Source of the DNA: Casimicrobium huifangae
Lineage (GTDB): Bacteria; Pseudomonadota; Gammaproteobacteria; Burkholderiales; Casimicrobiaceae
Assembly: GCF_009746125.1 (NCBI RefSeq)
Contig: NZ_CP041352.1
Location: 3,270,436-3,334,435, forward strand
Length of the DNA stretch: 64,000 nucleotides
Direction of reading: 5' to 3'
The position numbers and the translations under genes were made by a program. Position 1 is the first letter of the stretch. Each line of letters begins with the position of its first letter. This document shows, piece after piece, positions 6,206-14,081 of this stretch. Below the pieces are notes generated by a model. It worked only from the letters and a program-made list of their open reading frames with translations. It was not told where the DNA came from and did not search any database.

Positions 6206-8587
6206 GTGATCCCAAACGACTTCATCGCCCAGCTGCTGTCGCGCGTCGACGTCGTCGAGGTGATCGACCGCTTTGTACCGCTGAAGAAGGCCGGCCAGAA
6301 CTATCAGGCCTGCTGCCCGTTCCACAAGGAAAAATCGCCCTCGTTCTCTGTCAGCCCGACCAAGCAGTTCTACCACTGCTTCGGCTGCGGTGCGCATGGC
6401 TCGGCCATTACCTTCCTGATGGAATATGGCGGAAAGAGCTTCCCCGATGCCGTTGAGGAGCTGGCGCAAAACGTCGGCCTCACCGTGCCGCGCGACAACT
6501 CGCGACCGGCCGACCCGCAGGCGGGCGGCCTGTTCGACGTGATGCTCACCGCTGCGGGCTTTTACAAGCAGCAACTGAAGCATTCGCCGATCGCGATTGA
6601 CTACTTCAAGAAGCGCGGTGTCAGCGGCGAGGTCGCACGCCGCTTTCATCTGGGCTGGGCGCCGGCCGGCTGGCAGCCTCTGGCAGAGGCCTTTGACGAC
6701 TACGCCGACAACCAGTTGCTGGAAACCGCCGGGCTGGTCACCACTGGCGACGCCGGCAAACGCTACGACCGCTTTCGCGAACGGGTGATGTTCCCGATCC
6801 TGAATCAGCAGGGCGCGGTGATCGCGTTTGGCGGGCGCATTCTCGGTTCCAAGGATGACGGCAATGGCCCGAAATACCTGAACTCCCCCGAGACGCCGAT
6901 CTTCAGCAAGGGGCGCGAACTGTATGGCCTGTTTCAGGCGCAGGGCGCAATCCGCAAGGTGAATCGCGTGCTGGTGGTTGAGGGCTACATGGACGTGGTC
7001 GCGCTGGCGCAGTACGGCGTGGAGTATGTCGTGGCCACACTCGGCACCGCGACCACCGAAGCGCATGTGCAGCGCCTGATGCGGCTGGCCGACGAAGTGG
7101 TGTTCAGCTTTGATGGCGACAGCGCCGGCCAGCGCGCTGCCTGGCGTGCGCTCGAGAACGCGCTGCCGGCGCTGCGCGACGGCAAGCAGATCCGCTTCCT
7201 GTTCCTGCCCGAAGAACACGACCCCGACAGCTACGTGCGTGAGCATGGTCGCGAGGCATTCGAGGAGTACGTCGCCAACGCCTTGCCATTGTCGCAGTAC
7301 TGGATTGATGAGCTCAACAAGCGCCACCCCGGTGATAGCGCGGAGGCCAAGGCAGCGCGCGCCGCAGCGGCACGTTCGCACCTGGAGCTGGTGAGCGCAC
7401 CGATGCTGCGCGAGTCACTGGGAACGGTCCTTGCCAAAGACACTGAACTTTCGCTTGCATCGGTACTGCCACCAGTTAAGCGCGCTGCTCCGACCGAGGA
7501 AGAGCAACAGACCAGCTACAGACAATATTCCGGAGTCAGACCGCCACCTCTACGATTTGATCCGTTAGAAAAGCGTCTACTGCTTCAATCGAGGCGGATT
7601 CTTGCTCAGCCCAAACTCGCGATGGTCATTGCCGGAACTGTGCCAGCTAAGGCGGACGAGACCAATTTCGCGTTAAGACTCTTGATCGCCGTGGCAAATC
7701 AAGCGATCAAGATGGATGGGCCATCTCACTTTGGTATTTGGCATGCACAGTTCGAGCAGACAGACTTCGCGTCTACCGTATCAAGTTTATTAGTAGACAA
7801 AGATGTCGACATAGATGAGAGAGTGCCCTTCGAGGAAGCTGAGAGCGAGCTACGTGAGCTACGTAATCAGATTGAGTCGGGGACACTATTTCAGTCAACT
7901 CAGGTAGTGTCCGTCCCACAGAATCTCGCCAATCTCGGAATTCTTGCTCTCGGACCGCGACGTCAAGCGACTACTGCAAATGCTCTGCCCCTCCCCCCTG
8001 GTGGGGGAGGGGTTGGGGAGAGGGGGATGATGGCCTCCCAGCCACCAGCACCTGGGGCGCAGCCGTCACCCTCTCCCCTGCCCCTCTCCCCTCAAGGGAG
8101 AGGGGAAGACGCTGCGCACCGTCTTCGCGACTTCGCACGCGAACTACGTGCCAATCAAACCCCTTGGGAGCAGGAGTTATGGCAAGAGCTTCGCGCCCAC
8201 CGCTTCGCCGACGTGAAATTCAAGCGGCAGCAGCCGATTGGTCCCTACATTGCGGATTTTGTTGCCCTATCCAGATCAGTCGTTGTCGAACTAGATGGAT
8301 CACAGCATTCTCAAAACGCTGACTACGATCAGAAGCGCGATGACTTTCTCAGACAGGAAGGCTTTCGGGTAATTCGCGTCTGGAACAATGAATGGACTGA
8401 AAATCGGTCGGGCGTTCTTGATGCGATCTGGGCAGCCGTCACCGACAACCCCGGCGTCGGGCAGTCATCACTTTCCGGTGCCAGCGACCCGGATCAAACC
8501 CCGGACGACGATCTCGACGACATCCCGTTCGACTTCAACGCCAACTTCGCGCCGTCGCCGGACGACCAGCACGACGCGCCTTTCTAG
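6206..8587 (+). CDS. dnaG: DNA primase DnaG with C-terminal DUF559 nuclease-like insertion
   Basis: The replicative primase, which synthesises RNA primers for lagging-strand replication. GTG at 6206 fits the family N-terminus MIPxxFI. The zinc ribbon uses C37, H40, C58 and C61. The TOPRIM core contains VEGYMDVVAL (near 258) and FDGDSAG (near 300). A divergent helicase-binding region spans about 420-575. At 793 residues it is some 170-200 longer than typical DnaG. The excess (about 595-745) is a low-complexity linker encoded by palindromic C/G-tract DNA plus a DUF559 (Vsr/PD-(D/E)XK-like) domain containing YIADFVAL and VVVELDGSQH. An acidic tail ends the protein. Sample GC falls from about 70% (7081-7140) to about 45-52% in 60-base blocks of the 3' third. 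Core primase identity is certain; whether the insertion is translated or removed is unknown. Confidence 0.95.
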   Translation: MIPNDFIAQLLSRVDVVEVIDRFVPLKKAGQNYQACCPFHKEKSPSFSVSPTKQFYHCFGCGAHGSAITFLMEYGGKSFPDAVEELAQNVGLTVPRDNSRPADPQAGGLFDVMLTAAGFYKQQLKHSPIAIDYFKKRGVSGEVARRFHLGWAPAGWQPLAEAFDDYADNQLLETAGLVTTGDAGKRYDRFRERVMFPILNQQGAVIAFGGRILGSKDDGNGPKYLNSPETPIFSKGRELYGLFQAQGAIRKVNRVLVVEGYMDVVALAQYGVEYVVATLGTATTEAHVQRLMRLADEVVFSFDGDSAGQRAAWRALENALPALRDGKQIRFLFLPEEHDPDSYVREHGREAFEEYVANALPLSQYWIDELNKRHPGDSAEAKAARAAAARSHLELVSAPMLRESLGTVLAKDTELSLASVLPPVKRAAPTEEEQQTSYRQYSGVRPPPLRFDPLEKRLLLQSRRILAQPKLAMVIAGTVPAKADETNFALRLLIAVANQAIKMDGPSHFGIWHAQFEQTDFASTVSSLLVDKDVDIDERVPFEEAESELRELRNQIESGTLFQSTQVVSVPQNLANLGILALGPRRQATTANALPLPPGGGGVGERGMMASQPPAPGAQPSPSPLPLSPQGRGEDAAHRLRDFARELRANQTPWEQELWQELRAHRFADVKFKRQQPIGPYIADFVALSRSVVVELDGSQHSQNADYDQKRDDFLRQEGFRVIRVWNNEWTENRSGVLDAIWAAVTDNPGVGQSSLSGASDPDQTPDDDLDDIPFDFNANFAPSPDDQHDAPF
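7988..8012. repeat. C/G-tract inverted repeat at the start of the DUF559 insertion
   Basis: A perfect 10-bp palindrome (CCCCTCCCCC at 7988-7997, its complement at 8003-8012) with a 5-nt loop, lying in frame in dnaG just 5' of the DUF559 segment. Confidence 0.75.
8081..8105. repeat. Second C/G-tract inverted repeat before DUF559
   Basis: A perfect 10-bp palindrome (CCCCTCTCCC at 8081-8090, its complement at 8096-8105) with a 5-nt loop. It encodes the linker PLPLSPQGRGE directly before the DUF559 fold. Such tracts commonly precede stand-alone DUF559 reading frames. Confidence 0.75.
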
Positions 8588-11965: not shown

Positions 11966-13240
11966 ATGCTTGACCCGATCAGAACCCAGTCCAACCTTGC
12001 CGCCCCGGCGCACGTTCGCGAAGCCGAAACGATGCGCGTGAGCCGGGCAACGTTCGATGAGGTGATGTTTCAGACGTACGTCCCGGCGCAATTTGTGCCG
12101 GTGCGAGCGTCCGGGTCGCGCATCTGGGATAGCGAGGGCCGCGACTATGTGGACCTCGCCGGTGGCGTGGCTGTGCTCTCGCTCGGGCACTGTCACCCGG
12201 CGCTGAACGCCGCGCTCAAGGCGCAGGCCGATCGCATGTGGCACATCTCGAACTACATGGTGAACGAGCCCGCGATGCGGCTCGCCCAGAAGCTGGTCAA
12301 CGCGACGTTCGCCGACCGCGTGTTCCTGTGCAACAGCGGCACCGAGGCTAACGAAGGCGCGCTGAAAACGGCCCGCAAGTACGCCAGCACCAAATACGGC
12401 GAGCAGAAGCACCGCATCATCTCCACCACCAATTCGTTCCATGGCCGCACCTGGCTCGCGGTGTCTACCGGTGGCAGCCCGAAATACACCAAGGGCATGG
12501 GCCCGGTGCCAGCGGGCATCACCCATGTGCCATACAACGACGTGGATGCCTTGCGCGCGGTGATGGATGACGACGTGGCCTGCATCATCCTGGAGCCGAT
12601 GCAGGGCGAAGGCGGCATGTATCCGGGCAGCGCCGCATTCCTCGGGGCCGCGCGCGAGCTATGCGACAAGCACAACGCGCTGCTGATCTTCGACGAGATC
12701 CAGAGCGGCGTGGGCCGTACTGGCGCGCTCTACAGCTACATGCAAAAAGGCGTGACGCCGGACATCCTGACCAGCGCCAAGGGCATCGGCGGTGGCTTCC
12801 CGATTGGCTGCTTCATGGCGCGTGCCGAGGTCGCCGAAGTGATGCAGCCGGGTACTCACGGCACCACCTATGGCGGCAATCCGCTGGGCGCTGCAGTTGC
12901 CGAGACGGTGATTGACATCGTCAACAACGAAGCCTTCCTGCAGCGCGTGCTGGTCGCCGAGCAGCGCCTGCGCACAGGGTTTGCGGCCATCAACAGCAAG
13001 TACAACGTGTTTGCCGACGTGCGCGGCGAAGGCCTGTGGCTTGGCTGCGAGCTGGTCGCCAAGTACGACAACCGCGCCAGTGAATTCATGAAGGCCGGCC
13101 ACCGCAACAACGTGGTGTTCCTCACCGCCGGCAACAACAACATCCTGCGTTTCGCGCCGGCGCTCAACATCAGCGACGCCGAAATCGACGAAGGCCTTGC
13201 GCGCACCGAGCGCGCGATTGCGGAAGTCGTTAGCGCCTGA
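11966..13240 (+). CDS. Class III aminotransferase, acetylornithine/succinylornithine type
   Basis: A 424-residue PLP enzyme of fold type I, subgroup III. Motifs include VFLCNSGTEANEGALKTAR (phosphate-binding loop), NSFHGRTW, LIFDEIQSGVGRTG and the Schiff-base lysine K272 in TSAKGIGGGFP. The C-terminal LRFAPALNIS strand with its Arg is typical of ArgD/AstC-type enzymes. It would exchange an omega-amino group with 2-oxoglutarate/glutamate in arginine synthesis or degradation. The exact substrate (acetylornithine, succinylornithine or another omega-amino acid) cannot be fixed. It is probably in an operon with ridA (21-bp gap); REP repeats follow its stop. Confidence 0.9.
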   Translation: MLDPIRTQSNLAAPAHVREAETMRVSRATFDEVMFQTYVPAQFVPVRASGSRIWDSEGRDYVDLAGGVAVLSLGHCHPALNAALKAQADRMWHISNYMVNEPAMRLAQKLVNATFADRVFLCNSGTEANEGALKTARKYASTKYGEQKHRIISTTNSFHGRTWLAVSTGGSPKYTKGMGPVPAGITHVPYNDVDALRAVMDDDVACIILEPMQGEGGMYPGSAAFLGAARELCDKHNALLIFDEIQSGVGRTGALYSYMQKGVTPDILTSAKGIGGGFPIGCFMARAEVAEVMQPGTHGTTYGGNPLGAAVAETVIDIVNNEAFLQRVLVAEQRLRTGFAAINSKYNVFADVRGEGLWLGCELVAKYDNRASEFMKAGHRNNVVFLTAGNNNILRFAPALNISDAEIDEGLARTERAIAEVVSA

Positions 13241-13256
13241 TCAACAGCGCGATAAC

Positions 13257-13288
13257 GTAGCCTCGATGTAGCGCAGCGGAATCGAGGG
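13257..13288 (+). repeat. REP element 1 (GTAG type)
   Basis: GTAG followed by a short palindrome: CCTCGAT and ATCGAGG arms around a GTAGCGCAGCGGA-like centre. One of four copies clustered around the RAYT transposase gene. Confidence 0.85.
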
Positions 13289-13331
13289 AACCACGACGGC
13301 TGTCGGAGTCATTCGACGGCGTCCGCGTGTT

Positions 13332-13362
13332 GTAGCCTCGATGCAGCGAAGCGGAATCGAGG
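13332..13362 (+). repeat. REP element 2 (GTAG type)
   Basis: Same orientation as element 1. GTAG plus CCTCGAT/ATCGAGG arms and the centre GCAGCGAAGCGGA. It lies just past the 3' end of the transposase gene. Confidence 0.87.
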
Positions 13363-13381
13363 AAACCCGTGCCTGTCGAAT

Positions 13382-13900
13382 TCATTCAGGGACGTCCAAC
13401 TCCGGCGCGACAGCCCAATTTGGCGGCAGGAGCCCGTTCCGCACGTAACGATGAAACGACGAATGCGGCCAGCCGCCCGGCGTGTCGGCATGACCATGTT
13501 TCACCGGGTTGTACTGGATGTAGTTGACTTGGCCTTCGAAGTCGCGTTCGTCGCGAATGGTGTGTTCCCAGTAGCGCCGTTGCCAGAGGTCATAGGCGCC
13601 GGCGTCATCACGGGTGAGCGCAACGCCCGCACGTCGGCAAGCGGAGGTGAAGCGCGCCTTGATCGCCTTCCAGCGCCCCGCGTAGTCAGCGTCACCCGGC
13701 GGTAGCGTCCAGATGCAATGCAGGTGATCAGGTAGCACCACGATTGCGTCGGTGGTGAACGGCCGTTCACAGCGCACCCGATGGTACGCAGCCCGCAAAT
13801 CCTCGATGCGCTCCACCAGCAAGGGCGAACGACGATCCCGCAAAGTCACCGTGAAGAAGTACGTCCCGCCCGCCACAAAGTTACGCCGATACGCAACCAT
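13382..13900 (-). CDS. REP-associated tyrosine transposase (RAYT, Y1 HUH family)
   Basis: A 172-residue IS200/IS605-like Y1 transposase of the domesticated RAYT group. The metal-binding HUH-type motif is in LPDHLHCIWTLP, and the catalytic tyrosine lies in YIQYNPVKHG. The family signatures WQRRYWEH and GWPHSSFHRYVRNG are intact. ATG at 13900 is chosen; a TTG one codon upstream is possible. It has no IS ends of its own, but GTAG-type REP palindromes lie on both sides (13257, 13332, 13922, and inverted at 14049), the usual setting of RAYTs that mobilise REPs. The gene looks full-length and intact. Confidence 0.92.
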   Translation of the reverse strand: MVAYRRNFVAGGTYFFTVTLRDRRSPLLVERIEDLRAAYHRVRCERPFTTDAIVVLPDHLHCIWTLPPGDADYAGRWKAIKARFTSACRRAGVALTRDDAGAYDLWQRRYWEHTIRDERDFEGQVNYIQYNPVKHGHADTPGGWPHSSFHRYVRNGLLPPNWAVAPELDVPE

Positions 13901-13921
13901 CAATCAGCACCACAACAATCC

Positions 13922-13953
13922 GTAGCCTCGATGCAGCGAAGCGGAATCGAGGG
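13922..13953 (+). repeat. REP element 3 (GTAG type)
   Basis: Same orientation as elements 1 and 2 and identical to element 2 across the palindrome. It lies 5' of the transposase gene. Confidence 0.87.
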
Positions 13954-14048
13954 AAAACGCACGCGGGAGAGGAGAATTGGGAAATCGGAAAAGTGCTTCG
14001 ACACGGAATGATTCATCAACATTGGTTGCGATCAGCAACCGCACGATT

Positions 14049-14079
14049 CCTCGATTCCGCTGCGCTGCATCGAGGCTAC
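14049..14079 (-). repeat. REP element 4 (inverted copy)
   Basis: A reverse-complement copy ending in CTAC (GTAG on the minus strand). With element 3 it forms a BIME-like inverted pair about 95 bp apart. Confidence 0.87.
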
Positions 14080-14081
14080 CT

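Follow-up and report, generated by a model that had tools for sequence, protein, structure and literature searches.

The window analysed here is a stretch of 64,000 nucleotides from Casimicrobium huifangae (contig NZ_CP041352.1, forward-strand positions 3,270,436 to 3,334,435), whose genome is a single contig of 4.47 Mb. It contains dnaG (6206-8587, + strand), the only full dnaG match in this genome, as one unbroken, GTG-started frame of 793 residues that runs from the DNA primase through a DUF559 domain. The primase part is recognised by the NCBIfam dnaG model (460.9 bits over residues 1-409) and by the Pfam families Zn_ribbon_DnaG, DNAG_N and Toprim, with a weak match to DnaG_DnaB_bind (17.8 bits; cutoff 29.1). 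An in-frame insert follows, consisting of two inverted palindromic arms and, at 8114-8449 (+ strand, residues 637-748), the DUF559 domain (PF04480), a Vsr-like PD-(D/E)XK nuclease domain assigned from Pfam, conserved columns and the predicted fold. The Pfam match is full-length (residues 639-745, E 3.5e-36, 123.8 bits against a gathering cutoff of 20.6) and is the genome's sole DUF559 match at E <= 1. What remains of the DnaG C-terminus (8450-8584, + strand) begins with about 18 residues in which no right arm is clearly recognisable and continues as an acidic tail that is common to relatives with and without the insert.

An earlier note, made from the letters of the DNA alone, had placed a DUF559 nuclease-like module at 7988-8450 in an uninterrupted dnaG frame of 793 residues. 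The frame, and the motifs and coordinates named for it, proved correct; the module itself resolves into the DUF559 domain and, at 7988-8108, a palindromic repeat pair read in frame. The note had missed that the low-complexity peptide flanking the domain is the translation of a multicopy palindromic repeat, and that insertions of this kind recur in many unrelated proteins.

Results

Palindromic arms at dnaG and their copies in the genome

Palindromes at 7989-8011 and 8082-8104 lie between the helicase-binding region and DUF559, each with a C- or G-rich tail directed inwards. The left arm (7985-8027, + strand) is a palindrome plus G-rich tail of the triplex motif (TM) type, and the right arm (8069-8108, + strand) is an inverted copy of this type, with the tail preceding the palindrome; both were defined by genome BLAST, a pattern scan and folding. 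The spacer (8028-8068, + strand) was placed from the fold and from other two-arm sites in the genome. As single-stranded DNA, 7985-8108 is computed to form a three-stem fold (-45.8 kcal/mol, z -4.84), and the dnaG frame runs through the whole arm pair. The arm pattern (7-nt loop, at most one mismatch) has two sites in the window, both of them these, and none in 100 shuffles, which together with the Pfam score excludes a chance match.

Across the genome the hairpin pattern occurs 52 times, as against 0 for a control pattern with the C- and G-arms swapped. BLAST of 7975-8130 against the same genome gives 51 matches at E <= 1, and both arms are present over at least 100 nt at 13 places besides dnaG. 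A multicopy, inverted palindrome pair with a short spacer is the arrangement found in REPINs (repetitive extragenic palindromic doublets forming hairpins), and the arm, compared by eye with published rows, matches the published TM type of a hairpin followed by a G-rich third-strand tail. A permissive Rfam scan returned 47 weak matches, nearly all to miRNA families and far under gathering scores, which we take to be compositional.

Two further observations concern the surroundings. In the helicase-binding region (7436-7981, DnaG residues ~411-592), G+C at third codon positions falls to 0.40-0.50, compared with ~0.8 upstream and 0.93 in the tail; this region is 33-48% identical to other DnaGs of the genus, with G011 and G001 sharing it at 81%. 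On its composition and divergence it appears to be a replaced or fast-evolving domain. Elsewhere in the window, 13382-13903 (- strand) encodes an open reading frame (ORF) resembling a Y1 transposase of the RAYT type (REP-associated tyrosine transposase; 20.6 bits, just under the Pfam cutoff of 23). Its flanks (13240-14080) hold several GTAG-type palindromes, a repeat family distinct from the dnaG arms.

The embedded domain is conserved and has a predicted Vsr-like fold

The ratio of nonsynonymous to synonymous differences per site (pN/pS) of the DUF559 domain in dnaG is 0.156 between the window and G011 (112 codons), 0.161 between the window and G001, where synonymous sites are near saturation (pS 0.765), and 0.179 between G011 and G001; the dnaG core gives 0.132 and 0.163. 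By these values DUF559 in dnaG is under purifying selection and has been retained as a working protein. The window copy and 27 other DUF559 sequences agree in thirteen fully identical alignment columns, among them the D of YIxDF and the ExDGxxH pattern, and some of these are presumably catalytic.

AlphaFold2 models the domain with a predicted local distance difference test score (pLDDT) of 90.2. Its Foldseek neighbours in the PDB are 3hrl (the putative endonuclease NGO0050), 3r3p (the catalytic domain of I-Bth0305I) and the Vsr structures 1cw0 and 1vsr, along with several mitochondrial ribosomal proteins, and the model thus points to a Vsr-like fold. Prediction of the C-terminal 363 residues of DnaG (6 sequences) has a mean pLDDT of 50, with ~57-81 in the DUF559 blocks and ~30-40 in the linkers. 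Against the NCBIfam equivalog PRK09767 (NF007294), which we take to be YcjD, the window copy scores 96.3 bits, under the cutoff of 218. YcjD was treated as a member of the PD-(D/E)XK superfamily in a 2005 study (PMC1189080), and a 2026 study links a Caulobacter DUF559 protein to DNA damage and proposes a role in mismatch repair (PMC12907096).

The dnaG site differs between close relatives

Comparison of DnaG ends within the genus, which the earlier note had called for, shows that the fusion is carried by 3 of 14 assessable genomes (the window genome G000, G011 and G001) and is absent from the other 11 (G002, G004-G010, G012, G015 and G016), so the possibility that all close relatives share it as an ancestral extension of DnaG fails. 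Three genomes could not be assessed, G003 and G013 being fragmentary and G014 running off its contig. Both congeners have the fusion at the same place as the window; that of G011 is L003/L052 (JAPUER010000083.1), and that of G001 (L155) lies on contig C177, which starts inside dnaG.

In a tree of the dnaG core, the window species and G011 form a sister pair (96/91), with G012 as the next branch (92/93), and G001 pairs as sister with G015 (100/98). G015 carries a clean arm pair at the site without the nuclease, and G012 has neither the nuclease nor a clear arm. A search for decayed arms in G012 found a similarity that shuffles reached in 0 of 500 cases against the G011 pair, 127 of 500 against G000 and 6 of 500 against G015; a trace of arms there is suggestive only. 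The tree and the site states show two separate small groups in which some species have the nuclease and a near sister lacks it. The arrangement around it also varies: in G011 an arm pair stands on either side of the nuclease, both with the same spacer; in G001 it has an arm pair on one side and a lone right arm on the other; and in the window only the left arm pair is clear. The three dnaG DUF559 domains fall with two copies outside dnaG (G012_C3 and G001_C55) in a 5-row clade (100/99), within which the grouping of the three dnaG copies is poorly supported (94/12).

These comparisons bear on whether the fusion could be an artefact of assembly or annotation, or a decayed insert whose product is not synthesised any more. 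In favour of this stand the loss of the right arm from the window copy and the fact that our evidence is at the level of DNA. An assembly error, which the earlier note had raised, is nevertheless very unlikely given a single-contig genome and the same fusion in two further genomes, and decay sits poorly with an open frame, a pN/pS of ~0.16 and intact conserved family residues; we give the artefact or decay explanation hardly any credence.

DUF559 lies between inverted arms in many Pseudomonadota

Searches of the genus, order and phylum yielded 80 DUF559 loci, of which 3 were truncated and 77 testable; since such searches yield the best matches first, the 77 are not a random sample. Each was scored for an inverted repeat between the 300 bp upstream and the 320 bp downstream, with a threshold of at least 18, and segments of the same loci, shifted by 750-900 bp, served as controls (n=292). 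Inverted arms surround DUF559 in 52 of the 77 Pseudomonadota loci, compared with none of the 292 controls (maximum 17.5). They are found in 20 of 21 loci of the genus and in 32 of 56 loci from the rest of the phylum. Judged by eye from the arm sequences, most of the 52 inverted repeats belong to the TM type, and the outer arm ends of the 52 are 410-761 nt apart.

Ten of the 41 plasmid records that match DUF559 were examined. All four Deinococcus copies found pass the flank test (20.5-57), and in three Deinococcus plasmids the DUF559 gene occupies different gaps of the same hpa gene cluster. In two free-standing DUF559 genes (L132 and L133) a G-rich arm tail is seen by eye a few bases 5' of the GTG, where it could act as the ribosome-binding site of the nuclease gene. 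The E. coli DUF559 gene ycjD has sapF and fabI as its neighbours (loci examined: KE47 L256, MG1655 L268 and L266-L267). Of 5426 genomes, 3361 carry 80% or more of the ycjD locus, and in two other genomes examined efflux genes follow sapF in its place, as is likewise described in PMC12817139.

In-frame residence and alternation at the same site

A tree of 75 DUF559 domains contains a 13-row clade (99/96) in which all 13 domains lie inside host ORFs. The hosts are lipB (2 species, same loop), mnmG (2), oxoprolinase/hydantoinase B (2, same site), hsdM-type methylases (2), asparagine synthase (2), metG, a radical-SAM protein and a haem-dependent demethylase-like protein. Since the dnaG copies group in another clade, in-frame residence probably arose more than once.

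Nineteen loci were translated, of which 14 were judged to be fusions to a conserved host protein and 10 of these were checked with Pfam. The five not counted are L175, L179, L184, L210 and L214; L214 continues into a MurB-like frame, and L175 comes after another gene in frame. Pfam host domains were found in all 10 scanned fusions, nine from the 13-row clade and a TatD gene with DUF559 at its C-terminus. DUF559 is preceded and followed by host domains in lipB, mnmG, oxoprolinase, asparagine synthase and metG (by Pfam) and in the demethylase-like gene (by alignment), and some fusion ORFs reach the end of the locus, with the second side outside view. No splicing (Hint) family appeared among the Pfam matches of the window proteins or the scanned fusions, and we reject an intein on this ground. 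In two asparagine-synthase-like genes (L188 and L186), inspection by eye shows further repeat tracts at a second in-frame place besides the nuclease insert.

Gene-less repeats also reside in frame, as is found for the Rickettsia palindromic elements in protein-coding genes. Eight of 18 places examined in the window's genome lie in a frame that is open for at least 60 residues on both sides; four of these were checked and confirmed by Pfam (a UvrA-like protein, two molybdopterin oxidoreductases and the demethylase-like protein), and the remaining four may be chance frames. The UvrA-like host (L036, G000:C1:4413197-4416317) carries a gene-less repeat pair.

At three sites, in dnaG, lipB and the demethylase-like gene, gene-less repeats in one species alternate with the nuclease form in another at the same position. 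The demethylase-like gene has arms only in G000 and the nuclease in G016. Of 17 genus genomes, three have the nuclease in lipB (G004, G005 and G010, the G005 copy ending with its contig), nine have an empty loop, and four were unmatched by the motif. G014 has two lipB-like copies (L252 and L253) with TM-like arms in the same loop of both: the complete gene on C286 holds a full gene-less arm pair without DUF559, and the C281 copy has arms and possibly a nuclease further on, as it runs off the contig. Occupied, arms-only and empty states thus exist at the same site.

A dedicated role of the fusion in DnaG can be weighed against these data. DUF559 might have given the primase a new function, such as nicking at or after primer sites, clearing of lagging-strand hairpins or fork repair, and it is true that purifying selection on the domain is about equal to that on dnaG itself and that three species share the fusion. 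The earlier note had likewise offered a new replication or repair function; we find nothing in its favour beyond purifying selection, which an active selfish nuclease would also show. Most of the assessable genus members, near sister species included, lack the fusion, close relatives of the domain lie outside dnaG, and the same kind of insertion occurs in unrelated enzymes. On the strength of this spread among unrelated hosts and the absence from most relatives we demote a DnaG-specific function to an improbable explanation, and the link to DnaG is probably incidental. The tolerated selfish insertion that the earlier note offered alongside it is well supported, by the repeat-bounded unit, its sporadic distribution, the gene-less versions at the same sites and the many other hosts.

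Repeat number follows the presence of DUF559

We surveyed 150 genomes of the order, comprising 44 with a strong DUF559 match (E <= 1e-20), 95 without and 11 with weak matches; the weak-match genomes were kept apart in the main test and treated as negatives in a second test and in the within-family test. Repeat counts and DUF559 classes were entered by hand for both tests. Genomes with strong DUF559 have a median of 17 hairpin sites, with at least 10 in 28 of 44, compared with a median of 0, and at least 10 in 6 of 95, where DUF559 is missing (Mann-Whitney p 7e-12; odds ratio for at least 10 sites, 26). The weak-match genomes have a median of 2. Among 21 families that include both kinds of genome, those with DUF559 are richer in repeats in 17, poorer in 3 and equal in 1 (p 0.0013).

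Discussion

The unit structure, multicopy arms, sporadic presence, many in-frame hosts, same-site alternation, purifying selection and conserved residues are directly supported by our observations. Our favoured explanation, which we hold to be probable, is that the module in dnaG represents a very small mobile element in its gene-bearing form, a DUF559 gene between inverted TM arms. The gene-bearing unit would be ~0.41-0.76 kb long, with a single Vsr-like nuclease gene between the palindromic arms, and the gene-less pairs (left arm, ~40 nt, right arm) would be its short relatives, comparable to REPINs or to miniature inverted-repeat transposable elements, although they could equally derive from the gene-bearing form via deletion between the arms. 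At dnaG, the linker would have acquired the repeat pair and the nuclease in frame, both being read through, such that DnaG would carry the nuclease as a tethered domain before its natural acidic tail. A seat in the frame of an essential gene would offer guaranteed expression and shelter from crude deletion. The nuclease may cut or nick extruded arms, and repair of the break could then copy the element between arm-bearing sites, in a homing-like manner and without target duplication. The lack of a target duplication, the doubled arm pair in G011, the in-frame alternation and the likeness to homing endonucleases suggest such nuclease-triggered copying rather than cut-and-paste movement.

Several results weigh against this interpretation. 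Our evidence comes from sequences and predicted structures, and the repeats could be moved by something else. The window copy itself fails the flank test, with an inverted-repeat score of 8.5 against its own shuffle maximum of 12.5, because its right arm is missing or decayed, and 25 of the 77 loci stay below the threshold of 18. Only 1 of 5 cyanobacterial plasmid copies examined passes, one control there scoring 32, and E. coli ycjD fails, with TM repeats on its 3' side only. At least 10 repeats occur without DUF559 in 6 of 95 genomes of the order, and 7 of 44 have none despite DUF559. A scan of the 52 elements for target-site duplications found flanking direct repeats at about chance level, which leaves no direct trace of an insertion event and led us to reject a classical transposon or insertion sequence. 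Furthermore, arm distance and nuclease distance are weakly correlated (Mantel rho 0.135, reached by 43 of 2000 permutations; between host families 0.132, reached by 67 of 2000), and co-evolution of arm type and nuclease type was set aside at this level of correlation.

This last result is the reason why an alternative in which DUF559 is a passenger keeps real weight, unlikely as we judge it overall. Here the repeats would be moved by another agent (a RAYT-like transposase, replication slippage or hairpin recombination), and DUF559 would be cargo or a parasite, perhaps a repair or defence nuclease. The loose coupling of arm and nuclease types fits this, as do the genomes that hold repeats without DUF559 and the damage-related role proposed for the Caulobacter protein. 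In E. coli, TM repeats are tied to genomic instability without association to transposons, phages or plasmids (PMC4666352), which also fits. Set against it are the short distance between the outer arm ends, which leaves little room for a second gene, and the fact that repeat number follows DUF559 presence within families. As for a RAYT driver, the one RAYT-like ORF examined adjoins a different, GTAG-type palindrome, RAYTs elsewhere in the genome not having been searched for, and we rejected this candidate. Taken together, we regard DUF559 as the likely driver of the spread of the repeats.

The element resembles REPINs, Rickettsia palindromic elements and homing endonuclease genes, yet it lacks the enzyme of the REPIN/RAYT system and the target duplication of transposons. 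In REPIN/RAYT systems, two inverted palindromes enclose a short spacer, gene-less copies are numerous and one enzyme gene is associated with them. All three features recur here; the gene associated with the arms, however, encodes a DUF559 protein with a Vsr-like PD-(D/E)XK domain rather than a Y1 HUH transposase. In homing endonucleases, the nuclease gene is the core of a minimal selfish element. I-Bth0305I (PDB 3r3p) shares the Vsr-like fold and is the nearest mobility-related fold in the PDB search, whereas our element differs from nucleases of this type in its multicopy palindromic arms, its gene-less derivatives and its fixed residence in frame; allelic homing is a proposal only. Rickettsia palindromic elements, likened here by description, also lie in frame in unrelated protein-coding genes, but are ~150 bp long and found in other bacteria (PMC10969869), and the word 'endonuclease' is absent from the main text of that review.

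The closest counterpart of the arms is the TM or TMECO intrastrand triplex repeat, of which Holder et al. (2015) list 23 copies in E. coli MG1655 (PMC4666352). These share the C-rich/G-rich hairpin with a G-rich tail, occasional inverted pairs and a high copy number. They differ in that the E. coli copies are reported to be always intergenic, whereas those described here enclose a nuclease gene and also occur in frame within genes; no word beginning 'nuclease' occurs in the main text of that paper. E. coli YcjD, with TM repeats 3' of its gene, and N. gonorrhoeae NGO0050 (PDB 3hrl) share the domain or the fold. YcjD is a stand-alone protein in E. coli, and the window copy falls under the cutoff of the YcjD-type equivalog.

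More broadly, we advance tentatively, and with less confidence than the explanation of the dnaG module, the proposal that DUF559 elements form a mobile DNA class of their own: ~0.4-0.6 kb, with one nuclease gene and triplex-forming ends, spreading themselves and their gene-less derivatives through copying set off by the nuclease, without transposase or target duplication, able to live translated in proteins that are essential or conserved (DnaG, LipB, MnmG and MetG among them), and having made the TM repeats of E. coli and others through past activity. The openly licensed PMC literature that we searched, in the parts available, revealed no link between DUF559 and these repeats, and the element family is apparently undescribed.

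The association joins three orphan observations, namely the little-characterised DUF559/YcjD family, the unexplained TM repeats and the odd nuclease domains found in conserved proteins. It also carries a warning for annotation, as a DUF559 'fusion' can be an insertion and not a functional partnership of domains. Which agent spreads TM repeats can now be tested directly in E. coli K-12. If the nuclease does drive the repeats, the elements would rank among the smallest mobile DNAs that carry a gene, with the unusual habit of being translated within essential proteins.

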